The notes beneath the pieces were generated by a model. It had not been told where the DNA came from and did no database searches. It saw nothing but the letters and a program-made list of their open reading frames with translations. Shown here piece by piece: positions 5,846 to 21,282 of a stretch of DNA of 55,086 bases. A program made the translations under genes and the position numbers. Numbering within the stretch: position 1 is the first letter of the stretch; each line of letters begins with the position of its first letter. Source of the stretch: Catenulispora pinistramenti (GTDB taxonomy: Bacteria > Actinomycetota > Actinomycetes > Streptomycetales > Catenulisporaceae); the NCBI RefSeq assembly GCF_018274385.1, contig NZ_JAAFYZ010000052.1:1-55086 (forward strand), in the 5' to 3' direction.

Positions 5846-5976
5846 CCACGACTGACCACGACCTCCGTCTGACCACCCGCTCCGCGACGGCGCCGAGAGG
5901 CGCGGCCTTGGTGTCGGCCCGGCGGCGGGCTGCTGACCGCCCGGCGCGGGTCCCAGGACCGCGACCGGGTCGGCCC

Positions 5977-6855
5977 TCACGCCAGGGGCACCACCGCGAC
6001 CGGGCAGTCGGAGTGCTGCAGCAGCGTCTGGGTCACCGGTCCGATCTGCATTCCGTGCTGCCCCTCACCGTGTCGGCGAGCGCCGGTGACCAGCAGGTCG
6101 GCGCGGTATGAGGCCTCGACCAGCAGGCGGCCGGCCGAGCCGGTGGCGACCTGGTGGGAGGACTGGACCTCGGGGTGGCGGCGCCGGAGGGAGTGGATGA
6201 TCGCGGACAGATGGTCTTCGCGTTCGCTCTGGATGAGCGTGATCTCGTCGGCCAGGCCCGGGTCGTCCTGGCTGTAGGCCAGGATCCAGGGCTCGTCCCA
6301 GATGTGGATCACGGTGAGGCGGGCGCCGCGGCGGGAGGCCTCGGTGAAGGCGAAGTCGAGGACTTGTTCGCAGGGTTCGTCGATGTCGACCGCCGCCGTG
6401 ACGCGGTCGTGGTCGGCGTCGGTCTCGCCGCGGACCACCAGGACCGGGCAGCAGGCGTCGGCCAGGGCGCGCATCGAGGTGGAGCCCACTTGCAGGCCGG
6501 TGAATCCGCCCTTGCCACGGCTGCCCATCACCAGCAGATCGGCGCTGTGGGCGGCCTGCGCCACCGTCTTGCCGGCCGAGCCCACGAGGGCGCACGGCCG
6601 CACCTGAAGTCCCGGGTAACGCTCGTGGACTCGGTCGACGCCGTGTTGGGCGACGGCCTCGGCGGCCTTGCGCGCGGCGTCCTGCGGGTCGGGCTCCGCC
6701 GGCGACGGGACGGTCGGTCCGGAGGGCGCGGGGCGGCCGAAGGCGGTGACGACGTTCAGGTCCGCGCCGCGTATCGCCGCCTCGCGGGCCGCCGCGGCCA
6801 GCGCGACGTCGCCGTGCGGGGTCTGGTCGTAGCCGACGACGACGGTGCTCTTCAT
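5977..6855 (-). CDS. Universal stress protein, tandem UspA domains
   Basis: A 292-residue protein with two UspA domains. The first (residues about 1-140) starts STVVVGYDQTPHG and carries the ATP-binding signature GSRGKGGFTGLQVGSTS. The second (about 150-292) has GARRHGEGQHGMQIG and ends CPVAVVPLA. The tandem layout matches the mycobacterial dormancy USPs, which bind ATP. A DosR-like box at 6953-6966 lies 98 bp upstream of the start and is shared with the divergent gene at 7057. It is likely part of the redox regulon run by the genes at 7464 and 8284. Confidence 0.92.
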   Translation of the reverse strand: MKSTVVVGYDQTPHGDVALAAAAREAAIRGADLNVVTAFGRPAPSGPTVPSPAEPDPQDAARKAAEAVAQHGVDRVHERYPGLQVRPCALVGSAGKTVAQAAHSADLLVMGSRGKGGFTGLQVGSTSMRALADACCPVLVVRGETDADHDRVTAAVDIDEPCEQVLDFAFTEASRRGARLTVIHIWDEPWILAYSQDDPGLADEITLIQSEREDHLSAIIHSLRRRHPEVQSSHQVATGSAGRLLVEASYRADLLVTGARRHGEGQHGMQIGPVTQTLLQHSDCPVAVVPLA

Positions 6856-6952
6856 CGTTCCTCCAGGGCGCTTGAGCGTGCGTGTCGTTCACATCGCCTC
6901 CACTGTCGGCGCCAGGACGGCCGCGCCCCAGAGGCCGAAGGCCCGGCTGCCG

Positions 6953-6966
6953 GGGACCTTCGACCC
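6953..6966. promoter_or_regulatory. DosR-like box 1 (GGGACCTTCGACCC)
   Basis: This matches GGGnC-N4-GnCCC, the core of the mycobacterial DosR site, inside a wider GCCGGG...CCCGGC dyad. It sits in the divergent region between the universal stress gene and the small gene at 7057. A GGCCGAAGGCCC sequence about 15 bp to the left could be a second half of a double site. Confidence 0.6.
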
Positions 6967-7056
6967 GGCGGCTACGGGATCAAGGCCTCTGAACTCCGCG
7001 TCCTCGCGGCATGACGCTGGAGAAGGACAGGGTTTCTTCTACAGAGCGGCAAGGCC

Positions 7057-7359
7057 ATGAGCACCACCATCGACGTCCAAATCCCACACACCCCACACGC
7101 CACCGATCCCGGCCGGGACGCCTTCCGCGATGTCCTGCTCGGCGTCCAGCGCACCCTCGCCGCGAGCTGGGTCGACGACCAGCCGCGGATCGCCGTGGTC
7201 GAGCGCGACGGCCTGGCGACCGTCTACGTGAGCACTGCCCGCGCCCTGGATCCGCAGGTCAGGTCGGACATCCGGGGTGCGGTCCGGGCCGCGCTGGCGC
7301 AGTACATGTCCCTCGCGCCCTACACGAACGTGGTGTTCCTGCGGCGCAGGGCAGCCTGA
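7057..7359 (+). CDS. Small conserved-looking protein of unknown function
   Basis: A 100-residue soluble protein with no signal or membrane segment. It looks like a compact alpha/beta domain (strands around [14 protein letters not shown], helix around [14 protein letters not shown], final strand NVVFLRRR). I do not recognise the family. It is divergent from the universal stress protein, sharing DosR-like box 1, and lies immediately upstream of the response-regulator gene, which has its own box in the gap. The ribosome site (AAGG) is weak. Confidence 0.65.
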
Positions 7360-7380
7360 ATCCCCCGGCTCGCGCAAGAA

Positions 7381-7394
7381 GGGTCTTTCGGCCC
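7381..7394. promoter_or_regulatory. DosR-like box 2 (GGGTCTTTCGGCCC)
   Basis: This exact GGGnC-N4-GnCCC match lies 70 bp upstream of the response-regulator start. It suggests autoregulation, as is known for dosR in mycobacteria. Confidence 0.6.
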
Positions 7395-7463
7395 GTCCCC
7401 CAGCGGCAACTCGGCATTACTGTCGTTTCAGGACCTCGATGCGGGCCACGGAGGCTGGGCGAC

Positions 7464-8141
7464 ATGGACGGCGGCAACGGCGCTGACAACGGCAAGATCA
7501 GCGTGTTCCTACTGGACGACCACCAGGTCGTGCGGCGGGGGCTGAAGGACATGCTGGAGGACGAGCCGGATTTCGAAGTCGTCGGCGAGGGCTCCACGGC
7601 CGCCGAGGCGCTGGCCCGGGTCCCGGCGCTGCGGCCGCGGGTGGCGGTACTGGACGTGCGGCTGCCGGACGGGGACGGCGTGACCGTGTGCCGCGAGCTG
7701 CGCTCGAAGCTGCCGGAGCTGTCCTGCCTGATGCTGACCTCGTTCGCCGACGAGGAGGCACTGTTCGACGCCATCATGGCCGGCGCCTCGGGCTACCTGC
7801 TCAAGCAGACCCTCGGCCCGGAACTGGTCACCGCGGTGCGGACGGTGGCCGGCGGCGAATCGCTGCTCGACCCCAGGCTCGCGGCCAAGGTGATGGCCAA
7901 ACTCCGGGCCGCCGACGAGCGCAGAGACCCGCTGGCCCAGCTGACCGCGCAGGAACACAAGGTGCTGGACCTGATCGGCGAGGGCCTGACCAACCGGCAG
8001 ATCGCCGAGCGGATGTTCCTGGCCGAGAAGACCGTGAAGAATTACGTCTCCGCGCTGCTGGCCAAACTCGGCCTGACCCGGCGGGTGCAGGCCGCGGTGA
8101 TGGTCTCCGAGATCAAGTCCGAGCAGGCACGGCACCACTGA
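7464..8141 (+). CDS. DosR/DevR-like NarL-family response regulator
   Basis: A 225-residue protein. The receiver domain has acidic residues LLDDH (about 17-20), phospho-acceptor Asp64 ([12 protein letters not shown]), a switch Thr/Ser (MLTSF) and Lys (YLLKQ). The LuxR-type C-terminal helix-turn-helix [20 protein letters not shown] is nearly the same as in mycobacterial DosR, which activates the hypoxia/NO/CO dormancy regulon. The ATG at 7464 follows CGGAGG. It is convergent with the sensor kinase at 8284, its likely partner, and has a DosR-like box in its own leader. Confidence 0.92.
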
Positions 8142-8283: not shown

Positions 8284-10002
8284 TCAGTCGTCCAGCGGGA
8301 CCCGCCACGTCAACACGGTGCCGCCGCCCTCGGCGGGCCCGACCGTGAACTCCCCACCCAACGCCACGGCCCGGTCGGCGAGATTGCCCAAACCGCTGCG
8401 GCGTCCGCCGCCCTCCGGCATCCCCACCCCGTTGTCGGCGACCCGCAGCACCAGGAAACCGTCAGCAGTCGCCACATCCACATCAGCCTTCGTGGCCTGC
8501 GCATGCCGCCCGACGTTGGACAACGCCTCGCGCACCACCGCCAGAGCGTGCTCGGCCGCCTCGTCCGACACCTCGAAGTCGATCGGCCCGGTGAAGCGGA
8601 CCGCCGGGGTGAAGCCCAGGACCGTGGCAGAGTCCTGACACACCTGCAGCACCTGCGCCCGCAGGCCGGGGTCCTCGTCCGGCCCGCCGCGCTCGGACAA
8701 CGCGAAAATGGTCGAGCGGATCACCTTGATGGTGTCGTCGAGCTCTGACACGGCCTTGTTGACGCGGTCCCGCACCGCCTGCTTGTCGGTGATCTTCAGG
8801 ACCGACTGCAGCGTCATGCCGGTGGCGAACAGCCGCTGGATCGCCAGGTCGTGCAGGTCACGGCCGATCCGGTCGCGGTCGGCGTACAAGGCCAACAGAT
8901 CCACGTCGGCCCGGCGGTCGGCCAGCTCCAGCGCCACCGCGGCCTGCCCGCCGACCTCCGTCAGCATGTGCATGGCGCCCGCGTCGAAGGGCAGAGCCCC
9001 GAACCGTTTGGCGGCGACCAGAACGCCGCGTACCTTGCCGGCCGTGCCCAGCGGCGCGATATAGGCCGGCCCGAGGCCGAGTTCCGTCCACGGCTGCCGG
9101 TCATCCCATTGCCCGTCGACGATCGCGCGCCCGACCCCCGCGGCGAACACCGCGCCGACCTCGGAGCCGGCGATCGGCGTGGAGTCGCCCCGGACCCGCT
9201 CCCCGCCGGGGCCGGCGGCGACCTGGACCGTCAAGTGATCGGCGGCCGGGTCCGGCAGCGACACCATCACCAACTCCGCGCCGGCCATGTCCCGTACCCG
9301 TTCGACCAGCACCGCCAGCACGTTGCGGGCGTCCGCCCCGGAGAGCAGCCCGCGGGTCAGCTCGGCCGTGGCCGTCATCCAGCGCTGGCGGCTCTGCGCG
9401 TCGTCGTACAGGCGGGCGTTGTCGATCGCCACGCCGGCCGCGGCGGCCAGGGTGCTCAGCAGGGTCTCGTCGTCGGCGTCGAACCGCGAACCGCCGCGCT
9501 TCTCCGTGAGGTACAGGTTGCCGTAGATCTTGTCCCGGACCCGGATCGGAACACCGAGGAAAGTCCGCATCGGCGGATGGTCGTCGGGGAACCCGAACGA
9601 CGACTCGTGCTCCGCGATCTCCGCCAGCCGCAACGGCACCGGGTGCCGGATCAGCTGCCCGAGCAGCCCCATCCCGGTGGGAAACGGCCCGATCGCGTCG
9701 ATCTCCCGCTGGGTCAACCCCACCGTGACGAAGCGTTCCAGATGCTCACCGCCGCTGTCGATCACCCCCAGGGCGCCGTACTGCGCGTCCACCAGTTCGG
9801 CGGCGGTGCCGATGATGGTGGAGAGCACCTGGTCCAGCTCCAGGCCGCCGGAGACCGCCAGAACGCCCTGCAGCAGCTGCTGCACGCGGTCACGGGTCGC
9901 CCGGATCTGGGTCACCCGGGAGATCAGCTCATCGAGCAACTCGTCCATCCGCAGCTGCGGCAACAAAGAGTTGCGAGGCTCGTCCGGCTCCCGATCGGCC
10001 AT
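8284..10002 (-). CDS. DevS/DosT-like GAF-GAF haem sensor histidine kinase
   Basis: A 572-residue soluble protein. GAF-A (residues about 45-200) contains DDHPPMRTFLGVP; His142 fits the proximal haem ligand of DevS (His149), so O2/NO/CO sensing is likely. GAF-B spans about 215-360. The HisKA_3 dimerisation domain has phospho-acceptor His384 in DRIGRDLHDLAIQ, followed by a HATPase domain (REALSNVGRHA, VADNGVGMPEG, GLGNLADRA). Order and length match mycobacterial DevS/DosT. It faces the response regulator tail to tail. Its start region is shared with the divergent gene at 10180 and contains a DosR-like box and a palindrome. Confidence 0.92.
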   Translation of the reverse strand: MADREPDEPRNSLLPQLRMDELLDELISRVTQIRATRDRVQQLLQGVLAVSGGLELDQVLSTIIGTAAELVDAQYGALGVIDSGGEHLERFVTVGLTQREIDAIGPFPTGMGLLGQLIRHPVPLRLAEIAEHESSFGFPDDHPPMRTFLGVPIRVRDKIYGNLYLTEKRGGSRFDADDETLLSTLAAAAGVAIDNARLYDDAQSRQRWMTATAELTRGLLSGADARNVLAVLVERVRDMAGAELVMVSLPDPAADHLTVQVAAGPGGERVRGDSTPIAGSEVGAVFAAGVGRAIVDGQWDDRQPWTELGLGPAYIAPLGTAGKVRGVLVAAKRFGALPFDAGAMHMLTEVGGQAAVALELADRRADVDLLALYADRDRIGRDLHDLAIQRLFATGMTLQSVLKITDKQAVRDRVNKAVSELDDTIKVIRSTIFALSERGGPDEDPGLRAQVLQVCQDSATVLGFTPAVRFTGPIDFEVSDEAAEHALAVVREALSNVGRHAQATKADVDVATADGFLVLRVADNGVGMPEGGGRRSGLGNLADRAVALGGEFTVGPAEGGGTVLTWRVPLDD

Positions 10003-10084: not shown

Positions 10085-10129
10085 TGCGCCCGGGTCTGTG
10101 AGACAGCGTGAGCGGTGCCCTGGCAAATA

Positions 10130-10143
10130 GGGCCCAAAGACTC
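10130..10143. promoter_or_regulatory. DosR-like box 3 (GGGCCCAAAGACTC)
   Basis: One base off the GGGnC-N4-GnCCC pattern and almost identical to the box at 21136. It lies 37 bp upstream of the start at 10180 and 128 bp upstream of the kinase start on the other strand. Confidence 0.5.
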
Positions 10144-10179
10144 TTCTGCCCCGGTCCCGGCCACGGAGACGATCGAGTC

Positions 10180-10608
10180 ATGACCGTAGAACAGCGTATG
10201 GAGCGCTTCTCTGAGGCTGAGTCCCTCGGCCTCGCCGCGACCGTGCCGATAGGCCGGATCGTCTACAGCCGCTACGCGCTGCCGGCGGTCTTCATCGTCA
10301 ACTTCAAGCTGGACGGCCGCGATCCGGTGTTCCGGACCCGCAAGGGTCCGATGTTCGGCGCCGGGGTCGCCGAGACCGTCGTCGCCTTCGAAGTCGACCG
10401 GATCGACGAGCAGGCCCACGACGGCTGGTTCGTGACGTTCCTGGGCCGCGCCAAGCTGATCACCAGCCCGGCCGAACAGGCCCGGCTGGCCGGGCTGGAC
10501 GTCGACCCGTGGGCACCGGGCGAGCGGGACCACTTCATCAAGATCGTGACGGAGAAGGTCATCGGCCGCCGCATCCCGCACCACCCCGACGACGAAGCAG
10601 AGGTCTGA
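10180..10608 (+). CDS. Pyridoxamine 5'-phosphate oxidase-fold flavin-binding protein
   Basis: A 142-residue protein with the split-barrel fold of small FMN- or F420-binding proteins: an early RIVYSRYALPAVFIVNFKLDG segment, a substrate loop, and a strand with WFVTFLGRAKLI. It is not a full-length vitamin B6 enzyme; family members are often reductases or flavin/haem binders, and the type is common in DosR-linked gene sets. The ATG at 10180 follows ACGGAGACG. An earlier in-frame start at 10108 would put the DosR-like box inside the gene, so I prefer 10180. It may head a transcript running into phosphoketolase. Confidence 0.82.
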   Translation: MTVEQRMERFSEAESLGLAATVPIGRIVYSRYALPAVFIVNFKLDGRDPVFRTRKGPMFGAGVAETVVAFEVDRIDEQAHDGWFVTFLGRAKLITSPAEQARLAGLDVDPWAPGERDHFIKIVTEKVIGRRIPHHPDDEAEV

Positions 10609-10784
10609 CGCGGCCGGTGGCGGAAGCGACCGCTCGGACAGCCGGCTGGTGACGCGCCGGCCCCGAACACCGCCCACCTCGTCCACGGCGAGCCGAAGGC
10701 CGCCGAGTTCCCGCATGAACGCATCACCGAACGCCTGCGGTGGACGGCCGTCGTCCCCCGCCCGGGAGAAAAGGTCCTGTTGCC

Positions 10785-13208
10785 ATGACCATCCGTGACC
10801 ACGCCAGCCACGCCAGCCACGCCAGCCACGCCGACCACGCCGACCACCTCGACTCCGTCAGCCTCGACGCGATCGACCGCTACTGGCGCGCCGCGAACTA
10901 CCTGGCCGCCGGCCAGATCTACCTGCGGGACAACGCACTGCTGCACCGCACCCTGGAGCCGTCCGACATCAAACCGCGGCTGCTCGGCCACTGGGGCACC
11001 AGCCCCGGGCTGAACTTCGTCCACGCGCATCTCAATCGCCTGATCAAGGAGCACGAGCTGGACCTGATCACGGTCCTGGGCCCCGGCCACGGCGGCCCGG
11101 CCGCGCTGGCCTGCTCCTGGCTGGACGGCACCTATACCGACCACTACCCCGACGTCACCCGCGACGAGGCCGGGATGAACAAGCTGTTCGCCGCGTTCTC
11201 CGCACCCGGCGGCGTCCCCAGCCACATCGCCGCGAACGTCCCCGGCTCCATCCACGAGGGCGGCGAACTCGGCTACAGCCTGGCCCACGCCTTCGGCGCC
11301 GCCTTCGACAACCCGGACCTGATCGTGGCCTGCGTCGTCGGCGACGGTGAGGCCGAGACCGGTCCGCTGGCCACCTCGTGGCAGAGCGTCAGGTTCCTGA
11401 ATCCGGCCCGCGACGGGGCGGTCCTGCCGATCCTGCACCTGAACGGCTACAAGATCGCCAACCCGACCGTCCTGGACCGCATCCCGCGCGAACAACTCGA
11501 CGGCCTGCTGGCCTCCCAGGGCTGGGACCCCCGCTGGGTTTTCGGCGACGACCCGCACGCCATGCACCACAAGATGGCCGAAGCCATGGACTCGGCGCTG
11601 GCCACGATCCGGCGCATCCAGAACGTCAAGCGGAACCCGAAGGCCGCCGACAACGGCGTCCCGCCCTGGCCGGTGATCATCCTGCACACGCCGAAGGGCT
11701 GGACCGGTCCGCGGACCGTGGACGGCGTGCAGATCGAGGGCACGTTCCGCTCCCACCAAGTCCCGCTGACCGGCGTCCGGGAGAACCCGCAGCACCGGCA
11801 CATGCTGGCGGACTGGATGAAGTCCTATCAGCCCGGCGAGCTCTTCGACCACTTCGGCCGGCCCAAGCCCGAGATCCTGGCCTGCGTCCCGGACCGCGAC
11901 CAGCGCATCGGCGCCAACCGGCACGCCAACGGCGGTGTCCTCACCCGCACCCTGGACCTGCCGCCCATCGACGCGTACGCGGTGCCGGTCGCCAAGCCCG
12001 GCGAGACCGAGCACGAACCGACCCGCGTGCTCGGCACCTGGCTGCGCGACATCATCGCCGCCGACGCCCCGCACGGCACGTTCCGCCTGTTCGGTCCCGA
12101 TGAGACCGCCTCCAACCACCTGGACGACGTCTTCGACGTCACCAACCGGGTCTGGACCCTGCCCACCAAGGCGACGGACGACCACCTGGCCCCGGACGGC
12201 CGGGTCATGGAAGTGCTCTCCGAGCACCTGTGCCAGGGCTGGCTGGAGGGCTACCTGCTGACCGGCCGACACGGCCTGTTCTCCTGCTACGAGGCCTTCA
12301 TCCACATCGTCGACTCGATGCTGAACCAACACGTGAAATGGCTCAAGACCGCGCGGGCACTGCCCTGGCGGGCCCCGGTCCCGTCACTGAACTACCTGCT
12401 CACCTCGCACGTGTGGCGCCAGGACCACAACGGCTTCTCGCACCAGGACCCCGGATTCCTGGACCACGTCGCGAACAAGACCGCCGATGTGGTGCGGCTG
12501 TACCTGCCGCCGGACGCCAACACCCTGCTGTTCGTCGCAGAGCACTGCCTGAACAGCCGCGACCTGGTCAACGTCATCGTCGCCGGGAAGAACCCGAGCC
12601 CGGACTGGCTCAGCCCCGAGGACGCGGCCCTGCACTGCGCGCGCGGGCTGGGCATCTGGGACTGGGCCGGCACCGAGGACGAGTTCGCCAGCGAACCGGA
12701 TGTGGTGCTGGCGTGCGCCGGCGACGTCCCGACCCTGGAGGTTCTGGCCGCGTCCCAGCTGCTGCGCGAACACCTGCCCGGGTTGCGCATCCGGGTGGTC
12801 AATGTCGTGGACCTGATGCGTCTGCAGCCCGAGTCCGAGCACCCGCACGGCCTGCCGGACACCCAGTTCGACGCGATCTTCACCGTCGACCAGCCGGTGA
12901 TCTTCGCCTTCCACGGCTACCCGTCGCTGGTCCACCGCCTGACCTACCGTCGGCACGGCCACGCGAACCTGCACGTGCGGGGCTACAAGGAGCAGGGCAC
13001 CACGACGACGCCGTTCGACATGCTGGTCCGCAACGACATGGACCGCTTCAAGCTGGTCTGCGACGTCATCGACCGGGTGCCGGGCCTGGCGCCGAGGGCC
13101 GCGGCGGTGCGACAGGCCATGGCCGACGCCCGGACCCGGCACCAGGGCTGGATCGTCGAGCACGGTGAGGACCTGCCGGAGATCCGCGAATGGAAGTGGA
13201 CGTCATGA
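10785..13208 (+). CDS. Xylulose-5-phosphate/fructose-6-phosphate phosphoketolase
   Basis: An 807-residue thiamine-diphosphate enzyme that splits xylulose-5-P or fructose-6-P with phosphate to give acetyl-phosphate and an aldose phosphate. Typical segments are [41 protein letters not shown] and the ThDP motif [14 protein letters not shown]; the C-terminal part contains the [10 protein letters not shown] and [16 protein letters not shown] segments. The N-terminus has an odd His-rich [16 protein letters not shown] stretch encoded by CACGCCAGC repeats. A GGGAG ribosome site precedes the ATG. The stop overlaps the next start (ATGA), so the downstream acetyl-CoA-handling fusion is translationally coupled. 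Confidence 0.95.
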
Positions 13209-15907
13209 CCGGGCCCGCGACGACGGCCGACCGGGCCGGCATCGCACGCGAACCCGTACACGCCCTGCTCTCCGACGGCACTACCGTCTCGATCCGGCCC
13301 ACCGCCGAGGCGGACCTCGACGGCCTGAACGCGATGTTCGCCACGCTGTCCCCGAACAGCCTGCGCATGCGGTTCTTCGCCTCCGGCGCCGCCGCGGGGC
13401 GCGACGCGGCACGCAGGTTGTGCGAGCCGCATCCGGACCGCATCGCCCTGGTCGCGGTGGTCCACCACGGCGCGGCCGAGGAGATCGTCGGCGAGGGCGA
13501 GGCCTGGCGGCTCGGGCCCGACGCCGACGCCGCCGAGGTCGGTTTCACCGTCGCCGAGAGGCTGCGCGGCCGGGGCATCGGCACCCTGCTCCTGGAGCAC
13601 CTCGCCGACGCCGCCCGCGCGGCGGGCATCCGGCGGTTCGCCGCCGAGACCCTGTCGGAGAACCTGGCGATGAAACGCGTCATCGCCTCGGCCGGGCTGC
13701 ACCACAGCGCGACGTTCGAGCACGGCGGCGCCGTCTTCCACGACATCGACCTCACTGAAGACGACGCCTTCCTGGAGGTCGTCGCCGACCGCGAGTTCAC
13801 CGGCAGCGCGGCATCCCTGACACCGCTGTTCCGGCCACGCGCGGTGGCCGTGGTCGGCGTCGGACGCACCCGGGGAGTCGGCCGCGCGATCCTGGAGCAC
13901 CTGCTCGCCGCCGAATTCGACCGGCCGCTGTTCGCGGTGAACCCGCACGCGCAGGAGATCGCCGGCGTACCGTGCGCGCGCTCGATCGAGCTGCTGCCGG
14001 ACCGGATCGACCTGGCGATGCTGGCCCTGCCGCAGGACGGCCTCGTCGAGGCGGCGATCGCGTGTGGCCGCCATGGCATCAGAGCTCTGACCATCGTCAC
14101 CTCACCGGTGACGGAGCCGGTGCGCACGACGCTGAAGGCGGTCTGCCGCCGCTACGGCATGCGCCTGGTCGGCCCGAACTGCCTGGGTGTCGCGGCGTTC
14201 GGACCGGACATCACGATGGACGCCACGTTCGGGCCGCACACCCCGCTGGCCGGTTCGGCCGGGGTGGGTGTGCAGTCCGGCGGCGTGGGCATCGCGATAC
14301 TGGACCACCTGTCCCGGTTGGGAATCGGCACCGGCTCCTTCGCCTCGCTCGGCGACAAGGCCGACGTCTCCGGCAACGACCTGCTGGCCTGGTGGGCGCG
14401 CGATCCCGCGACCGAGTCGGTGCTGCTGCACCTGGAATCCTTCGGCAACCCGCGCAAGTTCGCCCGCTACGCCCGCCGCGTGGCCCGCACCAAACCGGTG
14501 CTGATCGTCGCGGCCGGACGCTCCGCCGCCGGATCGCGGGCCGCTGCTTCGCACACCGCGGCCTCGGTCACCCCCGGCGTCACCCGCGACGCGCTCTACC
14601 GGCAGGCCGGCGTCATCGCCACGCGCTCGGTCGCCGAGCTGGTGGAGACCGCGGTGCTGTTGGCGACCGGTGCCCGCCCGGCCGGCCACCGGGTCGCGGT
14701 GGTCTCCAACGCCGGCGGCACGGGGGTGCTGGGCGCCGACGCCTGCGTCGAGACCGGCCTGGCCGTCCCGGAGTTCAGCGCGGCATTGCGCGAGCGACTC
14801 AGCACCCTGCTGGGCCCGGTCGCGGCCTGCGGCAACCCGGTCGACGCCGGAGCCGGAGCCGACGCGGACCTGCTGCGCGAAGCCGTGCAGACCGTGGCCT
14901 CCTCCGGCGAGGTGGACGCCGTGCTGCTGTTGCTGGTGCCGACAGCGCTGGCAGAGCTGCCCGCGAGCCTGGCGGCCGACGCCCGGACCGGAACGGTACC
15001 GGCGATCGCCGTGCGGGTGGACCAGGCTGCCGCAGTCGAGACCGTGCTGGGATCCGACGGAAGGCCCGCACCGGTCTACGGAGACGCCGAAAACGCGGCC
15101 AGGGCGCTGAGTCACGCTTGCGACTACGCGGCCTGGCTGCGCCGGCCTGGCAGTGAGGTGCCGACGCTGTCCGATATCCGCTCGCGGGACGCCGCGCGCC
15201 TGATCTCGCTGTTCCTCGCCGCGCATCCTGAAGGCGGATGGCTGCCGCCGGACCGCGCCGCCGATCTGCTGGCCTGCTACGGGATCGGCTGCCCGCGCCT
15301 GGTGCTGGCCACCGACGAGCAGACCGCGGTGACCGCGGCCGCTCTGTGGGGCACCCCGGTGGCGATGAAGGCGTACTGGCCCGAACTGGTGCACAAGAGC
15401 GACATGGGCGGCGTGCTGCTGGGCCTTTCGGGACCGGAGGACATCCGCGCGGGATGGCGCCGGCTGCACGACAAGTTCGGCGACCGTCTGGCCGGCGTCA
15501 TCGTGCAGGAGATGGCGCCGGTGGGCGTGGAGTTGCTGGCAGGCGTCGACAACGACGCGGTCTTCGGCCCGCTGGTCGCCTTCGGCATCGGCGGCACCGG
15601 CACCGACCTGGCCGCCGACCGCGCCTTCCGGCTGGCACCGCTGACCGGCGCGGACGCCGGGGAACTGGTGCGCTCCACGCGTGCCGCCCGGCTGCTGGCC
15701 GGCTATCGCGGCCGACCCGGCGGCGACGTCGCTGTCGTCCGCGAGGTGCTGTCCCGGCTGGCGCTTCTGGCCGCCGAGCAGACCTGCGTGGCCGAGGCCG
15801 AGATCAACCCCCTGATCGCCGCCCCGGACGGGGTGACGGCGGCGGACTTCCGGATCCGGGTCGAACCCCGTACCCCGACCGATCCCTACCTGCGCCGCCT
15901 GCGCTGA
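13205..15907 (+). CDS. GNAT acetyltransferase fused to NDP-forming acyl-CoA synthetase
   Basis: A 900-residue fusion. A GNAT domain (about 25-180, acetyl-CoA loop RGRGIG near 121-126) is followed by a CoA-binding Rossmann domain (from about 205), succinyl-CoA-synthetase-like domains (VQSGGVG near 357; SHT near 449-451) and a C-terminal ATP-grasp domain (about 670-900, with [18 protein letters not shown]). This is the domain set of Pat-type protein lysine acetyltransferases, but with GNAT at the N-terminus. His450 fits the phosphorylated His of ADP-forming acetyl-CoA synthetases, so synthetase activity may be retained. The start is the ATG in the 4-bp overlap with phosphoketolase; an in-frame ATG at 13190 is an alternative. 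Confidence 0.88.
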
Positions 15908-16119
15908 ACCTGGCACCGGCGCAGACCACGAGAAACAGAGTCATACCGAACAACTCTTCGACAGGCTCCCCGGACTTACCCGGGTGCCCAGGCTCCTGCG
16001 CGCGATGTACACGGGCCAGGACTGGTCCGTACGGCTCCGGAAACGGACCGGCACGGTCGCGGCCACCACCGCCGGGGTTCGCAATGACGGCGAGACGTTC
16101 GGCGTCGCTGTCGACTTCT
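15908..16119. other. Short gap between convergent genes with a possible coding remnant
   Basis: No complete gene fits here. On the + strand an open frame from about 15930 (residues such as YTGQDWSVRLRKRTG) has GC-rich third positions but no convincing start, and it runs into the opposite gene. GGTCCGT...ACGGACC (about 16023-16048) is a 7-bp inverted repeat that could act as a weak terminator. It may be a gene fragment or chance. Confidence 0.25.
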
Positions 16120-17301
16120 CTACGACCCGGGCTGCCCTGCTGCCGCGGGGGCCGGCGGCGGTGCCGCGGCCTGCGGCGAGGCATCCTGTTTCGCCCGATC
16201 CGCGGCCCACGCCGTCACCGCCAGGCCGATCAGGGCGGCGGCCAGGATCGCGGCGCCTTCGCCGGGGCGCAGCAGACCGGCCCGCTGACCGATCGTCACC
16301 GCCGCGACCGGCACCCCGAGCTGTGCCCCGGCCAGCACTGCCAGCGGCAGCGGCTGACCGAGCAGCCGAGCCGCCGCGTGGACGACCACGGTCGCCAGCA
16401 CCAGTGCCCCGGCCAGCGCCATCATCCCGGGATGGTCGATCAGTTCCTTGAGGTCCAGGGAGGCGCCGAGCCACACGAAGAACACCGGCCCCAGGAACCC
16501 GTCGGCCACCGCGAACAGCTGCCGTGCCAGCCGCCGCGGCTCGCCCTGCGCCGCCAGGATCAGACCGGCGGTGAACCCGGCGAGCATCACCGAGACCCCG
16601 GTCGCCTCGGCGATGCCGGCCAGCCCGAACACGATGATCAGCTGTTCCCGCAGTTCCAGGCCGAAGTTCCGGCGCCGGCTGAGCCGGTGCAGCCACTGTT
16701 GGCCGCCCCGCGCCCGCAGCTCGCGCACGATCAGGAACACCGCCAGCCCCGCGCCGCCGACGGCCAGCACGCCCAGGACCGCGCGCCCGGCCCGCGCGGG
16801 CTGCTCGGCCAGCGGCAGCAGGACGATGGCCGCGGTGTCCGCGACCGCCACCTGCGCCGTCATCACCAGCACCGGGGACGAGGACAGCCCCGCGTCCTGG
16901 ACCACCGGCATCACCAGCGCCGCCGAGCTCGAAGCGATCAGCACCGCGTACAGCCAGCCGTGCCCGGTCCCGGCGCCCACGGCCACCCCGAGCCCGGCGG
17001 GTACCGCCAGCGCCGAGGTGAGGACCACCAGCCGGACGCCCCGTCCCAACGCCGGCCGCAGCGTGGGCGAGCGGACCGGGATGTGGCTGCCGGCGACCAG
17101 CATGATCAGGGCGAACCCCGCCTGGGCCAGGAAGGTCAGCACCGCGGAGGAGGGATCCACCCAGCGCAGCGCCGTCCGCCCGACGAGGACCCCGGCCAGG
17201 ATCTCCCCCACCGCCACCGGCACGCCCCGGCGCTTCGGCGCGGCCAGGAGCGGGCCGACCAGCCCGACGGCCAGCACCAGCGCGAGAACATCCAGGCTCA
17301 C
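16120..17301 (-). CDS. CPA2-family cation:proton antiporter (Kef/NapA-like)
   Basis: A 393-residue membrane protein with about 11-12 hydrophobic segments, starting MSLDVLALVLAVGLVGPLLA. Features of the Na+/H+ exchanger domain include VGEILAGVLVG and the paired helix around QVAVADTAAIV near residue 150. There is no C-terminal RCK/TrkA-N domain; the tail is a short Ala/Pro-rich stretch. The likely role is exchange of Na+ or K+ for protons. It is divergent from the small gene at 17628, and two DosR-like boxes lie between them, so it probably belongs to the redox regulon, perhaps for pH or membrane-potential homeostasis. Confidence 0.85.
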   Translation of the reverse strand: MSLDVLALVLAVGLVGPLLAAPKRRGVPVAVGEILAGVLVGRTALRWVDPSSAVLTFLAQAGFALIMLVAGSHIPVRSPTLRPALGRGVRLVVLTSALAVPAGLGVAVGAGTGHGWLYAVLIASSSAALVMPVVQDAGLSSSPVLVMTAQVAVADTAAIVLLPLAEQPARAGRAVLGVLAVGGAGLAVFLIVRELRARGGQQWLHRLSRRRNFGLELREQLIIVFGLAGIAEATGVSVMLAGFTAGLILAAQGEPRRLARQLFAVADGFLGPVFFVWLGASLDLKELIDHPGMMALAGALVLATVVVHAAARLLGQPLPLAVLAGAQLGVPVAAVTIGQRAGLLRPGEGAAILAAALIGLAVTAWAADRAKQDASPQAAAPPPAPAAAGQPGS

Positions 17302-17509
17302 CGGCTCCTCCTCCTTCTCCGCTCCGCATCCGGTCGCGATGCCGAGCGGCAGCGGATCATTGAAAGCTACCCGGTCCGCGCTGTCAGGAACTCGAGGCGC
17401 TGAACATGGTTTCCCGTGCCCGAGCCGAGCCCGAGCCGTGCCCGAGCCGCCGCCATGACGGACGCCGGCAACCGCCGGGCACGATCACCCGGCTCCCGCG
17501 ACCGAATCC

Positions 17510-17547
17510 GGGCCCTTCGGCCCTGCGGCACAGGGGACAAAGGCCGT
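17510..17547. promoter_or_regulatory. Tandem DosR-like boxes 4 and 5
   Basis: GGGCCCTTCGGCCC (17510-17523) is an exact GGGnC-N4-GnCCC match. GGGACAAAGGCCGT (17534-17547) follows with its start 24 bp further on and matches less well at the 3' end. They lie in the 326-bp divergent region between the antiporter (start 17301) and the small gene at 17628. Tandem DosR sites are known in mycobacteria. I see nothing else in this gap. Confidence 0.55.
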
Positions 17548-17627
17548 TCCGCGGGACCCGGCAGCCGAGGCAAGCTGAGAATCAGGACCCGCCCCAGCGG
17601 AGCCCGGCCGGTACGCGAGGAGAAGCA

Positions 17628-17906
17628 ATGACACACGTGTGGATCAGCACTTCGGACGGCGATCTCCTGCGCGCCGACCAGGTCCGGCAGATCAACGTCG
17701 TCGAGGGCCTGCGCGTCGTGACGACCAGCGGCAGCCAGTTCCTGCTCGCCAAGGTCGAGGGGCGCGAGCCCACCCTGGCCGCCGCCCGCGCGCTGGCGAC
17801 CGCGATCGCCGACGGGGCCACGTCGTCCCACGCGGCCCAGATCGACGTCGTGCGCGAGGAGGCCGGCTGGAAGGTGCGCCTGACAGCGATCGCGGAACAA
17901 TCGTGA
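17628..17906 (+). CDS. Small protein of unknown function (regulon candidate)
   Basis: A 92-residue soluble protein beginning MTHVWISTSDGDLLRADQV. It shows two parts: an N-terminal beta-rich segment (LRVVTTSGSQFLLAKVEG) and a C-terminal alpha/beta segment. I do not recognise the family. The ATG follows GAGGAGAAGCA. It sits downstream of tandem DosR-like boxes and convergent to the flavodoxin gene. Its 3' end is followed by two copies of an 18-bp direct repeat (GTGAAGCACGGAACGATC, about 17904-17939). Confidence 0.7.
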   Translation: MTHVWISTSDGDLLRADQVRQINVVEGLRVVTTSGSQFLLAKVEGREPTLAAARALATAIADGATSSHAAQIDVVREEAGWKVRLTAIAEQS

Positions 17907-17955
17907 AGCACGGAACGATCGTGAAGCACGGAACGATCTCCCGCCGGACAACGGC

Positions 17956-18015
17956 CGCCGCCCACGGTTCGTGACCGGCCCCGGGCAGTCCGCCGGTCAC
18001 GAACCGTGGGCGGCG
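17956..18015. terminator. 24-bp perfect inverted repeat, bidirectional terminator candidate
   Basis: The arms 17956-17979 and 17992-18015 are perfectly complementary over 24 bp with a 12-nt loop, between two convergent genes. The right arm includes the last codons and stop of the flavodoxin gene. No T-tract follows; actinobacterial terminators often lack one. Confidence 0.75.
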
Positions 18016-18563
18016 AGCGACTTCCCCCACTGGACGGCGCGATCGATCTCGCCGGCCAACAGCTGGTCCTGGCCGTCGACCAGGAAGCTGGCCGGCCGGG
18101 CGGCACTGGCGTAGCCACGCTGCCGCAGCCGCTTGGCGATGGCCCGGCTGGTACGGCCGGTGAACAAGACCGGACCGGACCGGCGGGTGTCGAACGCGGC
18201 AGCAGCCACCTGATGCTTCACCGCGATGCCTTGCGGCTCGACATGGCTGCCCACGGGCAACGCGTCCAGCACACTCCTGAGGTCAGACTCCTCGGACGCA
18301 CCAGGCGCCGCTTGGGGCAGGCCGTAAGCGGACGCCGCCGTGCGCGGCTCGGGCTTACGGGTATACAGCGCCGGCAGACCGTGCCCGTGCGTCGGCCCGC
18401 CGATGATGAGGAGGTCGACGTCGACGCTCGCGAGAAGGCTCCCCTCGGCGTCCGCGGCCGGGACCAGAGTCGCTTCACCGGCGGTGCGCAGGCCTTCGGC
18501 GATCGCTTCGGCGACGGTGTGGGTGTTGCCGAACACGGACTCATAGATGATCAGGGCTCTCAT
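17997..18563 (-). CDS. Flavodoxin-domain protein
   Basis: A 188-residue protein with the FMN phosphate-binding loop IIYESVFGNTHTVAEAIAEGL at the N-terminus and a flavin-contacting GGPTHGHGLP loop near residue 55. The C-terminal half carries a LFTGRTSRAIAKRLRQRGY segment. It is likely a small electron carrier or flavodoxin-like redox protein. It lies 41 bp downstream of htpX on the same strand, so it is probably in one transcript driven from the box at 19559. Confidence 0.85.
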   Translation of the reverse strand: MRALIIYESVFGNTHTVAEAIAEGLRTAGEATLVPAADAEGSLLASVDVDLLIIGGPTHGHGLPALYTRKPEPRTAASAYGLPQAAPGASEESDLRSVLDALPVGSHVEPQGIAVKHQVAAAAFDTRRSGPVLFTGRTSRAIAKRLRQRGYASAARPASFLVDGQDQLLAGEIDRAVQWGKSLAAHGS

Positions 18564-18604
18564 TTCCGATTCCTCAATTCCGGTTCCTCATTTCCGCTTC
18601 CCCC

Positions 18605-19495
18605 TCACACCGGCCGCCCCAGCTGCTCGGTGATCCGGGCGAGCTGGTCCAGACGGCGCTCCAGCTTCGGGTGCGTCGAGAACAGGCCGGCCAGACGACC
18701 GCCGCCGACCGGGCTGATGAAGAAGGCGTTGAACGCCTGCACGCTGCGCAGGTCGCGACGCGGGATCCGGGCCGCGGAGTCGGAAAGCTTGACCAGCGCG
18801 GAGGCGAGCTGTGAAGGCTGGCCGGTCAAGATGGCGCCGTCCCGGTCCGCGGCCAGCTCGCGATACCGCGACAGGGCCCTGATCAACACGAAGCTGATCG
18901 CGTAGACCGCGGTCGAGACCACCATGATCGCCATGATGACCATCGCCGTGTTCTGGTTCCGGCGGCCGAACACCTGGGAGTACAGGGTGAAGCGCATCAT
19001 CAGCCCGGCCACGACGCCCAGGAAGGAGGCGATGGTGATCACCGCGACGTCCCGGTGTGCGACGTGCGTCAGCTCATGCGCGAGGACGCCCTCCAACTCC
19101 TTCTCGTCCAGCAGCCCCAGAATCCCGGTCGTCACACACAACACCGCGTGATCGGCGTTCCGGCCGGTCGCGAACGCGTTGGGCACGTCCAAGTCCGCGA
19201 CGGCCACCTTCGGCTTCGGCATGTCGGCCAGCGAGCACAGGCGGTCCAGGACCGCGTGCAACTGCGGATACTCCTCAGGCGTGACGATGTGCCCTTTGAG
19301 GGCGGCCAGCGCGATCCGGTCGGAATACCAGTACTGCGCGAACAGCAGGGCGCCGAGGATCACCACGATCAACACGACGGACTTGAGCAACACCACCAGC
19401 GCCGCGGCGAAGACGAGGTACAACAGTCCCAGAAAAAAGATCGTCACCCCCATCCGCACACTCAGCTGCCGGTCAGGCTTGATACGGCTTTGCAC
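18605..19495 (-). CDS. htpX: HtpX-like membrane M48 metalloprotease
   Basis: A 296-residue protein with two N-terminal hydrophobic segments, then the zinc motif HELTH in GVLAHELTHVAHRD (about residue 140), two more membrane segments and a downstream ELAADRDGA motif supplying the third zinc ligand. HtpX is a heat-shock-type protease that degrades misfolded membrane proteins. A DosR-like box lies about 64 bp upstream. It is the first gene of an apparent htpX-flavodoxin operon. Confidence 0.93.
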   Translation of the reverse strand: MQSRIKPDRQLSVRMGVTIFFLGLLYLVFAAALVVLLKSVVLIVVILGALLFAQYWYSDRIALAALKGHIVTPEEYPQLHAVLDRLCSLADMPKPKVAVADLDVPNAFATGRNADHAVLCVTTGILGLLDEKELEGVLAHELTHVAHRDVAVITIASFLGVVAGLMMRFTLYSQVFGRRNQNTAMVIMAIMVVSTAVYAISFVLIRALSRYRELAADRDGAILTGQPSQLASALVKLSDSAARIPRRDLRSVQAFNAFFISPVGGGRLAGLFSTHPKLERRLDQLARITEQLGRPV

Positions 19496-19558
19496 GACGC
19501 CTCCTGGTGTCTGGTGCTCCCGCTCTCAGCATGGGCCTCGACCAGTTCCTCAGGGCAG

Positions 19559-19572
19559 GGCCATACGACCCT
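19559..19572. promoter_or_regulatory. DosR-like box 6 (GGGCCATACGACCC)
   Basis: An exact GGGnC-N4-GnCCC match in the 106-bp gap upstream of htpX, between the htpX start (19495) and the stop of the deacetylase gene (19602). Confidence 0.55.
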
Positions 19573-19601
19573 GATCCAGAGCGCCTGGACACGCCCGCCG
19601 C

Positions 19602-20786
19602 TTACGGCTCCGGGTACAGCCCATGCGAAGGAAACACCGAGCGCCGAGTCAGCATGACGGCCCGGTCGACGGGATCGGCCGGGTCGTACCCGGCGCTCCA
19701 AGGACGCGGGACGGGCCGGTGTCCGTCGGTCATCACCGAGACCACGTCGGTACGGCCCGTCACCTGCCGGGCGAAGGCCAGCCATCCGCTGGGGACCGCC
19801 GAGGCCGGCGCGATCGGCTGACCGGCCGCTTCGGCCAGCAGGTGGGTCCAGGCCCGCGGCACGACGTTGACGGTCTCGTAGCCTCCCCCGCCGAACGCGA
19901 CCCACCGCCCGGACGCGGCCTCGTGAGCCAGCCCGTGCAGCCTCTCGGCCGCCGCACGCTGCCCGTCGACCGTGAGCAGCAGATGGGCCAGCGGGTCCAG
20001 GGCATGGGTGTCACAGCCGTGCTGCGTGACCAGCACCTCCGGCTCGAAGGCCCGAAGCAGCGGCGGCACTACCGCATCGAAGGCCCGCAGCCACATCTCG
20101 TCCCCGGTCCCCGCCGGCAGCGCGACGTTCACGGCGCTGCCCTGCGCGCCCGCACCACCGGACTCCTCCGGCAGACCGGTGCCCGGAAACAGGGTCCTGG
20201 GATGCTCGTGCAGACTGATCGTCAGGACCCTGGGATCGTCCCAGAAGGCGGCCTGGACCCCGTCCCCGTGGTGCACATCGACGTCCACATAGGCGACGCG
20301 CTGCGCACCCTGGGCCAACAGCCACGCTATGGCGATCGCCGGGTCGTTGTACACGCAGAACCCCGAGGCCCGGGAACGCATCGCGTGATGGAGGCCGCCG
20401 GCGATGTTCACGGCGTGCTCGCTCGCCCCGCTCCACACCTGGCGCGCGGCGGCGACGGAGGCTCCGACGATCCGCGCTGACGCCTCGTGCATGCCGGGGA
20501 AGTAGGGGTTGTCCTCGGTCCCGAAGCCGAAACGCACGCGCTCGGCATGCGTCACAGACGCGGAATGCCGGACGGCCCCGACGTACTCGGCGGAGTGCAC
20601 CAGTTCCAACAAATCGCCGTCGGCAGGCCGGAAGGCGACCACGTCCACGCCGGGCAGGTCCAGGAGACCGAACGACCGGGCCAGCGCCATCGTGAGTTCC
20701 ACTCGCACCGGCGCCAGCGGATGGTCGTGGCCGAAGTCGTACTCCAGCAGACAGTCATCCCACGGCACACTCAGCGACCCGGTCAC
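19602..20786 (-). CDS. acuC: AcuC-type acetoin utilisation / class II histone deacetylase-like protein
   Basis: A 394-residue protein of the arginase/HDAC fold. Active-site segments are GGLHHAM (His133/134), GFCVYNDPAIA and YVDVDVHHGDG (zinc ligands Asp168, Asp170 or His172 by alignment), with TISLHEHPRTLFPGTG after them. AcuC-type enzymes remove acetyl groups from lysines of acetyl-CoA synthetase and other proteins. The chosen start is GTG at 20786 behind a strong AGGAGGGAGG ribosome site; a longer frame to 20951 has no such support. Together with the GNAT fusion at 13205 it could form an acetylation/deacetylation pair. Confidence 0.88.
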   Translation of the reverse strand: MTGSLSVPWDDCLLEYDFGHDHPLAPVRVELTMALARSFGLLDLPGVDVVAFRPADGDLLELVHSAEYVGAVRHSASVTHAERVRFGFGTEDNPYFPGMHEASARIVGASVAAARQVWSGASEHAVNIAGGLHHAMRSRASGFCVYNDPAIAIAWLLAQGAQRVAYVDVDVHHGDGVQAAFWDDPRVLTISLHEHPRTLFPGTGLPEESGGAGAQGSAVNVALPAGTGDEMWLRAFDAVVPPLLRAFEPEVLVTQHGCDTHALDPLAHLLLTVDGQRAAAERLHGLAHEAASGRWVAFGGGGYETVNVVPRAWTHLLAEAAGQPIAPASAVPSGWLAFARQVTGRTDVVSVMTDGHRPVPRPWSAGYDPADPVDRAVMLTRRSVFPSHGLYPEP

Positions 20787-21282
20787 GAGATCCTCCCTCC
20801 TGGCAATGCTGTATGGAAGAAGTGGACCGCCCCCGCACCCGGCACTGTCTCCGGTCGGGGAGCCGGCGTCCACCGCACAGCGAAACGGCCCGTGCCGCAC
20901 GGGCCGCAAGATTCCGAGAGCCAGCGAACCTGCAAGGTGGGCTCCCGTCACCGGAATCGTCCAGATCAGGTGGTGGAGGTCGCTGTCCGGCCCCTATCAG
21001 CCTTCCAGCCTCTCAGCCCGTCCCGTCACACGATCTCGTCTGGTAACCCCTTCTCAAGATCGCCTTCCGCGTCGGACTCCCTCGCTCGCCCCGCAGGTCC
21101 ACTCCTTACGTTAGTCCGTGCCCAAGACCCCAACAGGGCCGAAAGACTCTAATCCCAACCTTTCCTTCTACCCTGCCCGCACCCGCCTGGGGCGCCATAC
21201 CGTGGCCGTATCGAGGGCTCATCGGACGCCCTGCGGCATGAGAGCAGGACCGCGTGCCCAAGCAGGCTGAAGGGCCGACATC
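20787..21282. other. Intergenic region, 496 bp, between divergent genes
   Basis: No convincing gene. It contains a weak DosR-like sequence GGGCCGCAAGATTC (20901-20914) 115 bp upstream of the deacetylase start and a better one at 21136-21149. There is an inverted repeat GGCCCGTGCCGCACGGGCC (20897-20915 region) that may form a hairpin. The rest shows no repeat or open frame with actinobacterial codon bias. Confidence 0.5.
21136..21149. promoter_or_regulatory. DosR-like box 7 (GGGCCGAAAGACTC)
   Basis: Differs by one base from box 3 at 10130. It lies 134 bp upstream of the small gene at 21283. Confidence 0.5.

Follow-up and report, generated by a model that had tools for sequence, protein, structure and literature searches.

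Why should a phosphoketolase gene, a gene for an acetyltransferase fused to an acyl-CoA synthetase, and a gene for an AcuC-family deacetylase lie together beside a DevR-type regulatory pair? This arrangement is found in Catenulispora pinistramenti, on contig NZ_JAAFYZ010000052.1 (55,086 nucleotides, hereafter the window), which is one contig of an 11.46-Mb genome. Comparison of sequences indicates that the fusion protein is a member of a predicted ligase-competent group distinct from SlPatA, the acetyltransferase of Streptomyces lividans. The same comparison indicates that this group, and not the SlPatA-type one, is part of DevR/OsdR-type gene clusters; both points go beyond the original prediction made from the DNA alone. 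A DevR/OsdR-controlled acetyl module, composed of a phosphoketolase supplying acetyl-phosphate, a ligase-competent acetyltransferase, and an AcuC eraser, is a reading we hold to be about evenly balanced between right and wrong. The genes concerned are the following.

7464-8141, + strand: response regulator of the DevR/DosR/OsdR type, matching Mycobacterium tuberculosis DevR (3c3w) over nearly its whole length at E=3e-80
8284-10002, - strand: sensor kinase of the DevS/DosT type, with domains GAF-GAF-HisKA_3-HATPase_c
10785-13208, + strand: phosphoketolase (XFP), ATG at 10785 and stop at 13206-13208
13190 or 13205-15907, + strand: GNAT/ADP-forming acyl-CoA synthetase fusion, with alternative in-frame ATGs
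19602-20786, - strand: AcuC-family Zn-dependent deacetylase, GTG at 20786, Hist_deacetyl 287.6 bits (a longer open reading frame starts from 20951)

The phosphoketolase possesses the XFP_N, XFP, and XFP_C domains of Pfam at full length and scores 1370.7 bits against NCBIfam NF003619 (cut-off 962). As originally predicted, its stop overlaps the start of the fusion: the ATG at 13205 shares the tetranucleotide ATGA with this stop, and initiation at 13190 gives an overlap of 19 nt. Pfam domains of the fusion follow the order GNAT - CoA_binding_2 - Succ_CoA_lig - Ligase_CoA_2 - ATP-grasp_5. The AcuC-type deacetylase expected about 4 kb away was also found, with its 3' end 3.7 kb past the fusion end and on the opposite strand; acuC and the fusion gene are in different operons. 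The proposed DosR-type sensor was borne out by the DevR-like regulator and by the kinase, the first GAF domain of which most resembles those of DosT/DevS (DosT-like 2vzw, E=9e-47; DevS was also matched). A conserved His is located within an HPPMRTFLG stretch of the kinase and is presumably the haem ligand (DevS H149), if the construct numbering is as we assume.

The window fusion carries E116, E416, H455, K727, H735, E781, E869, and N873. These include the residues of ADP-forming acyl-CoA synthetases (ACD), namely, the alpha-Glu E416, the alpha-His H455, the beta-His H735, the ATP-grasp Lys K727, and the metal residues E869/N873, named by the roles usual for this enzyme family. The AlphaFold2 model of the fusion has a mean predicted local distance difference test (pLDDT) score of 86.9. 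Its sole internal stretch with pLDDT below 50 comprises residues 446-459, the loop bearing H455; low values would be natural for a loop that swings. The top match in a fold search was PatZ of Escherichia coli (9it0, 9isq), and the ADP-forming 4-hydroxybutyryl-CoA synthetase 8wzu and ACD1 were also among the top matches. The GNAT half can be aligned to 4nxy, the corresponding domain of S. lividans Pat. The fusion scores far under the equivalog cut-offs of the ACD models in NCBIfam. Judged by its residues, the synthetase half looks catalytically intact, and this adds a metabolic role absent from the original prediction.

A tree of 79 fusions, constructed by a quick method with long-branch warnings and with L077 excluded (locus handles begin with L, genome handles with G), placed the SlPatA-type proteins in one branch of 31 rows with a Shimodaira-Hasegawa-like approximate likelihood ratio test (SH-aLRT) value of 100. 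The SlPatA type was recognised via the near-identity of L035 to PDB 4nxy. Residues were compared between 44 full-length non-SlPatA fusions and the 31 SlPatA-type ones; these 44 proteins and the 44 loci used below for neighbouring genes are different, overlapping sets, and the 31 SlPatA-type proteins stand beside 39 loci. Two residues separate the groups completely at the aligned columns, H455 and E781 (each 44/44 vs 0/31). E869 and N873 were each present in 43 of the 44 non-SlPatA proteins, vs 6 and 9, respectively, of the 31 SlPatA-type ones. H735 (44/44 vs 26/31) and K727 (43/44 vs 31/31) are common to most members of both groups, and E416 and S363 are retained throughout. The idea that SlPatA simply lost the alpha-His is weakened, since in 30 of the 31 SlPatA-type proteins the preceding column holds a His (GH[T/A]V or the like); the ATP-grasp residues are for this reason a safer criterion than the alpha-His. 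A collagen-like G-P-S stretch, considered as a trait of type II (SlPatA-like) GNATs, proved to be an invalid discriminator, because the regular expression matched none in the window fusion and equally none in the SlPatA-type sequences. The window fusion is about 33-39% identical to SlPatA-type proteins (tblastn), and its identification with SlPatA is ruled out by tree, residues, and neighbourhood.

Six of the ten same-genus genomes (G000-G009) carry the fusion, the best copy having 79-100% identity, and nine Catenulispora copies were compared together with their surroundings. In seven of the nine (window, L040, L042, L044, L047, L049, and L051), phosphoketolase and fusion share an identical 16-nt overlap of their aligned ends. 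L042, whose alignment ends one residue early, is counted among these seven; L051 (G002) has a phosphoketolase without its middle (residues ~131-613) and an overlapping fusion that is open throughout. In the remaining two copies, the genes are separated by 244 nt (L050) or only a phosphoketolase remnant is left (L046). In L040, L042, L044, L046, L047, and L049, but not in the window, the fusion is followed by a gene for a universal stress protein, separated from it by 26-65 nt in the alignments.

For a view beyond the genus, 296 genomes were drawn evenly from the class; the fusion was present at E<=1e-140 in 51 of them (52 places), and each place was viewed together with its flanks, up to the limits of the contigs or fetched stretches. 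Phosphoketolase genes occur within 9 kb in six of the 52 places (window, G033, G038, G242, G097, and G310; partial genes in G038 and G310), and at about 10 kb in G014 and about 21 kb in G028. In G242 the fusion comes first and is followed on the same strand by the phosphoketolase, with 244 bp between them; in G097 the two genes are divergent. Counted by locus, a phosphoketolase lies within 9 kb of the fusion in 13 of the 44 non-SlPatA loci (three partial) vs none of the 39 SlPatA-type loci. The suggestion that phosphoketolase, fusion, and AcuC would show conserved synteny held for the first two, which share the overlap in most Catenulispora copies and are also linked in other families; the AcuC part is patchy.

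The tally of neighbours used a radius of 9 kb and identity filters (e.g., at least 50% for the regulator and at least 40% for the kinase), which drop regulator matches of 32-35% in four SlPatA-type loci (L110, L112, L113, L118) and of 30-40% in L079 and L128. It omits L057 (decayed fusion) as well as L041, L043, L045, L048, L053, and L055, which are neighbouring stretches, and scores L052, with a phosphoketolase 9.9 kb off, as negative for this gene. Several contigs stop near the fusion (e.g., L091, L107), where absence means little. The near-identical L088 and L089 were counted as two loci, many loci are from one genus, and the Fisher values ignore relatedness. Eighteen of the 39 SlPatA-type loci are a control from genus g4 of the same order, a genus that the S. 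lividans match leads us to regard as Streptomyces; all 18 are closest to the SlPatA type.

The same tally links the fusion to DevR-type genes (regulator, kinase, universal stress protein, or PNPOx). At least one such gene was located within 9 kb in 30 of the 44 non-SlPatA loci and in none of the 39 SlPatA-type loci; with Catenulispora set aside, the count is 21 of 35. The regulatory sites considered in the window, to which no strand is assigned, are these.

7380-7395: DevR/OsdR-type box upstream of the regulator gene, 0 mismatches to GGGNCNNNNGNCCC
10129-10144: one-mismatch box, located at -51 relative to the PNPOx gene
17509-17524: OsdR-type box, the window's best (15.1), upstream of a 92-aa open reading frame at 17628
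19557-19572: exact box at -77 of htpX (-80 in L046)
21135-21150: imperfect box about 350 bp upstream of acuC

Within the window, the sequence AGGGCCNAAAGACTCT is exact at 10129 (before the PNPOx gene) and 21135, and with up to 3 mismatches it occurs seven times vs 0.59 expected, a partly circular figure as the pattern was drawn from two of those sites. A matrix of published OsdR sites gave low scores to 10129 and 21135 (0.4 and 4.1) and the highest to 17509 (15.1); the numbers of sites above its threshold were near chance. A looser consensus with one mismatch was rarer in the window than in shuffles. The simple DevR consensus over the window was dropped on account of these counts, and the boxes were judged by position-conserved comparison with relatives, through which alone they appear convincing. 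The published OsdR consensus is AGGGCCGATCGGCCCT, as given in the passages covered of PMC5069765.

The PNPOx box stands at -51 in all four copies compared (two exact, two with one mismatch). An exact box heads the phosphoketolase-containing unit in 6/6 Catenulispora relatives with an intact phosphoketolase, with offsets for the phosphoketolase and beta-CASP genes that rest on approximate starts. Namely, CGGGCCGAAAGTCCCG precedes the beta-CASP-XFP-fusion array in L040, L044, and L049 and stands directly before XFP in L042 and also in L047, where the last base is changed; L050 has a different exact box directly upstream of XFP. No box was found at that place in L046, where the phosphoketolase is a remnant. 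Beyond Catenulispora, 16 of 35 non-SlPatA loci have the exact palindrome GGGNCNNNNGNCCC in the 300 bp preceding the fusion, against an expectation of 1.7 estimated from the remainder of these loci; the corresponding figures for SlPatA-type fusions are 0/39 and 0.95. A hand count over upstream regions gave 14 of 25 with the kinase, exchanger, and flavodoxin rows set aside, or 14 of 26 once the flavodoxin row is included; no weight is placed on it. Linkage and DevR-type control are supported by these comparisons.

The window copy itself is atypical, as is seen from two features in front of the phosphoketolase.

10180-10608, + strand: Pyridox_ox_2 (PNPOx-like) gene (Pfam)
10648-10785, + strand: remnant of a beta-CASP/RMMBL gene, consisting of its final 46 codons, with 83% identity to codons 496-541 in L044

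The remnant lies within the 176 bp before the phosphoketolase, and its stop overlaps the phosphoketolase ATG. The intact gene in L044 encodes Beta-Casp and RMMBL domains, and such a gene precedes the phosphoketolase in L040, L044, and L049. The window operon's own box appears to have been lost along with most of the beta-CASP gene. With this box gone, the PNPOx gene and its box at 10129 are next in line as the probable promoter, and the window operon probably relies on this oxidase promoter before it. Control by the DosR-type sensor, as originally proposed, is in keeping with the boxes before phosphoketolase and fusion in relatives, but in the window the operon's own box is seemingly absent.

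The AcuC-family protein has the HH pair, the D-x-H metal site, and the distal Asp and Tyr in an alignment to HDAC6; we assume for these residues (HH, D-x-H, Asp, Tyr) the roles they have in HDACs. No NCBIfam family matched the protein at E<=0.001, and the name AcuC therefore denotes a family resemblance. It is encoded by the only Hist_deacetyl gene found in the genome of the window. This gene clearly has a promoter of its own. The weak box reported beside it does exist as the imperfect site at 21135, and an exact box lies near -50 of the gene in L042 and L046, but the window site scores low (4.1); the AcuC gene of G004 (L075) has one-mismatch matches only. Between acuC and its imperfect box, positions 20787-21134 form about 350 bp without an evident gene.

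Within Catenulispora, the fusion has AcuC in its vicinity in the window, L042, and L046, and a fragment of it in L047. It was detected in five of the six genomes with the fusion (one fragment) vs none of the four without it (two-sided Fisher p = 0.048), in a sample of related genomes of which G002 and G006 are about 80% complete. In G004 the gene is on a short separate contig. AcuC homologues are present in 229 of the 296 class genomes; because they are so common, adjacency and not presence is informative. Adjacency was found in five of the 51 fusion-bearing genomes of the class sample (window, G068, G071, G093, and G161), and in the latter four AcuC is 48-93 nt from the aligned fusion. A general AcuC linkage is ruled out by this count. 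In G011-G013, three more genomes from the family of the window, the fusion is shorter (787-789 aa), and the distance between its aligned part and AcuC is 0.9-2.7 kb.

The shorter fusions of this family (L072-L074 and L076; 751-789 aa) have AcuC within 2.7 kb in three of the four cases; they appear to be without the alpha-His and most of the ATP-grasp part. Also, positions 3752-7326 of the metagenome contig L071 contain a ligase-intact fusion, 51 nt, and then a divergent Hist_deacetyl gene (28% identity to the window AcuC). As a cluster partner, AcuC stands beside the fusion in several lineages and is otherwise patchy; its membership in the cluster is suggestive.

Of the module's claims, gene identities, the conserved overlap and boxes, the catalytic residues, and the association with DevR-type clusters are shown by comparison; the activities of the fusion, its use of acetyl-phosphate, its targets, induction by low oxygen, and the sharing of these targets by AcuC are what we infer. 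The sequence of events would be as follows. Low oxygen or a related respiratory stress would cause the DevS-like kinase and the DevR-like regulator to induce the phosphoketolase, which would convert sugar phosphates to acetyl-phosphate. The fusion, translationally coupled to the phosphoketolase, would take up this product, and its synthetase half would convert acetyl-phosphate to acetyl-CoA or transfer its phosphoryl group to give ATP. The GNAT half would then use acetyl-CoA to acetylate lysines on enzymes or regulators, and the AcuC-family enzyme of the same regulon would strip these marks.

The natural reaction of ADP-forming acyl-CoA synthetases is acetyl-CoA + ADP + Pi <-> acetate + ATP + CoA, and its path includes an enzyme-bound acyl-phosphate. 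These enzymes act via phosphohistidines, according to the portion covered of PMC11494057. Given this mechanism, an ADP-forming enzyme beside a producer of acetyl-phosphate could run the reaction acetyl-phosphate + CoA -> acetyl-CoA. A related case is described in the passages covered of PMC11255334: the AcuA-AcsA complex of Bacillus subtilis has an intrinsic phosphotransacetylase activity, by which acetyl-phosphate and CoA give acetyl-CoA; this acetyl-CoA serves to acetylate AcsA, and AcuC reverses the acetylation.

Several observations weigh against the acetyl module. In the acetyltransferase half, the first residue of the R/Q-x-x-G-x-G/A acetyl-CoA motif of GNATs (as described in the part covered of PMC8556138) is Q in all 31 SlPatA-type proteins, and among the 44 non-SlPatA ones it is R in 9 (all Catenulispora), Q in 6, H in 28, and A in 1. 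The GNAT catalytic Glu is present in all 31 of the former; of the latter, 40 keep it and 4 have D in its place. Outside Catenulispora, the GNAT half may be weak. As to regulation, no box is present directly upstream of the phosphoketolase in the window, the exact upstream box is missing in 19 of the 35 non-Catenulispora loci of the fusion's group, and a DevR-type gene is not within 9 kb in 14 of this group's 44 loci. The phosphoketolase of presumed Streptomyces is 2 to 21 kb from the fusion or was not seen. The fusions beside AcuC in G068 and G161 are of the SlPatA type, and AcuC within 9 kb is found at 7 of the 44 non-SlPatA vs 2 of the 39 SlPatA-type loci (Fisher p = 0.16). Two SIR2 (sirtuin) genes elsewhere in the genome could also deacetylate, and pta/ackA elsewhere could use up acetyl-phosphate.

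In the genus itself, all nine fusions keep the motif Arg and none has Asp in place of the catalytic Glu, so that both halves look intact there. In L016-L028 of genus g4, the ligase residues are kept and His occupies the first GNAT motif position; Asp replaces the catalytic Glu in L020, L021, and L027. In the L016-L028 fusions the GNAT half may be drifting.

This divergence of the two halves bears on the best of the alternatives, which assigns the fusion a chiefly metabolic part as an ADP-forming acetyl-CoA synthetase saving energy (acetyl-CoA/acetyl-phosphate -> acetate + ATP) when respiration fails. There would be no acetylation switch, and the GNAT half would be vestigial or would regulate its own ligase half only. 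Consistent with this alternative, the tested ligase residues are kept in 43-44 of 44 proteins while the first GNAT motif residue is not R/Q in 29 of 44, ADP-forming 8wzu and ACD1 are among the top fold matches, and the fusion is co-regulated with a fermentative enzyme. We nevertheless regard it as rather unlikely, given that Glu116 is kept in 40 of 44 proteins, the nine Catenulispora sequences have the canonical Arg, and an HDAC-family gene stands beside the fusion in several lineages.

The patchiness of the neighbourhood agrees with another alternative, which sees in the three genes no more than ordinary parts of a low-oxygen stress regulon, held together by co-regulation and having no common substrate or target. 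Genes for universal stress proteins, PNPOx, beta-CASP proteins, and exchangers are present in some of these clusters and missing from others, the phosphoketolase of presumed Streptomyces is kilobases off, and the AcuC linkage is discontinuous. Co-regulation as the sole tie is unlikely in view of the conserved translational overlap of phosphoketolase and fusion, their adjacency in G242 and G097, and the acetyl-phosphate chemistry common to the product of the one and the enzyme family of the other. The weakest alternative, a type II Pat-like regulator with a synthetase half that only senses acetyl-CoA (as in SlPatA and PatZ) and a merely co-expressed phosphoketolase, can appeal to the domain order as in SlPatA (PMC4053389, part covered), to E. 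coli PatZ as best fold match, and to the review PMC8556138, which in the passages covered calls such synthetase domains inactive sensors, but is decidedly unlikely, as the catalytic His whose loss that review ties to inactivity is present in the fusion, and the SlPatA type forms its separate branch (SH-aLRT 100) with DevR-type genes, phosphoketolase, and boxes associated in 0/39 loci.

The acetyl module can also be formulated in a more specific way. In M. tuberculosis, acetylation of DosR at K182 by a GNAT inactivates the regulator and a sirtuin reactivates it, as reported in the parts covered of PMC5861037 and PMC5999986. The window regulator matches 13 of 14 residues of the K182 peptide (taken from the covered part of PMC5861037), and it is a matter of speculation that the fusion acts on this K182-type lysine. 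The fusion would then be a bifunctional ADP-forming acetate:CoA ligase and lysine acetyltransferase of a kind not described before, which receives acetyl-phosphate directly from phosphoketolase, makes acetyl-CoA on the spot, and sets marks that act back on the low-oxygen response, including one on the conserved DosR-K182-type lysine of its own regulator, for AcuC to erase. We consider this version very doubtful; if it were true, carbon flux through phosphoketolase would tune the DevR/OsdR response.

The region between the fusion and acuC contains a Na/H exchanger gene, a small open reading frame, a flavodoxin-like gene, and htpX.

16120-17301, - strand: Na/H exchanger family gene (homology)
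18605-19495, - strand: htpX metalloprotease gene, directly downstream of acuC on the same strand, likewise in L046

L040 and L044 each have an exchanger homologue at a distance of 1.2 kb from the fusion, and L047 has one at 9.3 kb. The 92-aa open reading frame behind the window's best OsdR-type box (17628-17906) has no Pfam match. Positions 32372-36811 hold a large gene for an FtsK/SpoIIIE-type ATPase followed by a 94-aa open reading frame; we presume that this locus may be related to type VII secretion. A second phosphoketolase of the same genome (G000:C122, L078) adjoins pta and ackA, and at this other locus their presence rules out the notion that there is no other sink for acetyl-phosphate. 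Neither pta nor ackA was found near the fusions in 50 loci with surroundings.

The significance of the fusion is best seen against earlier descriptions of its relatives. The synthetase domains of Pat-type proteins are described as dead acetyl-CoA sensors in the passages covered of PMC8556138; here, a widespread actinomycete group keeps the catalytic set. If active, the fusion would unite acetyl-phosphate supply, ATP yield, and lysine acetylation in one protein of a low-oxygen programme, and the origin and fate of acetyl groups in dormancy-like states would become a testable question. Among the top results from open-access PMC literature, to which the search was confined, no account combined phosphoketolase, ADP-forming synthetase, DosR/OsdR, AcuC, and acetylation.

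The OsdR and DevR (DosR) regulons share with the cluster a DevR-like regulator, a DevS/DosT-like kinase, universal stress proteins, PNPOx, and palindromic boxes (passages covered of PMC5069765). The term phosphoketolase does not occur in that paper, and its targets include no acetyltransferase-synthetase fusion or AcuC in the passages covered. The Acu switch of B. subtilis consists of a GNAT, an acetyl-CoA synthetase, and a class I Zn deacetylase, as in the window. Unlike the fusion, AcsA of B. subtilis is AMP-forming and a separate protein, and the operon includes acuB; phosphoketolase is not mentioned in PMC11255334. The originally proposed analogy to an Acu-like switch is not supported as worded: AcuA and the fusion are different proteins, and neither acuB nor acsA turned up among the Pfam-annotated neighbours. 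PatZ of E. coli and Pat of Salmonella enterica (type I GNAT) have the same two modules as the fusion in the opposite order, and PatZ, unlike the fusion, is without the alpha-His in the alignment. SlPatA (type II GNAT) resembles the fusion in its N-terminal GNAT, its NDP-forming acyl-CoA synthetase half, and its similar size; the SlPatA type differs in that the ATP-grasp residues are mostly lost and the loop His is displaced by one column. The type II GNAT synthetase is described as inactive and without the catalytic His in the covered part of PMC8556138, whereas the fusion has H455 and H735. The archaeal ADP-forming synthetases ACD1 and Nmar_0206 have no GNAT domain, but their subdomains and catalytic residues are as in the fusion.

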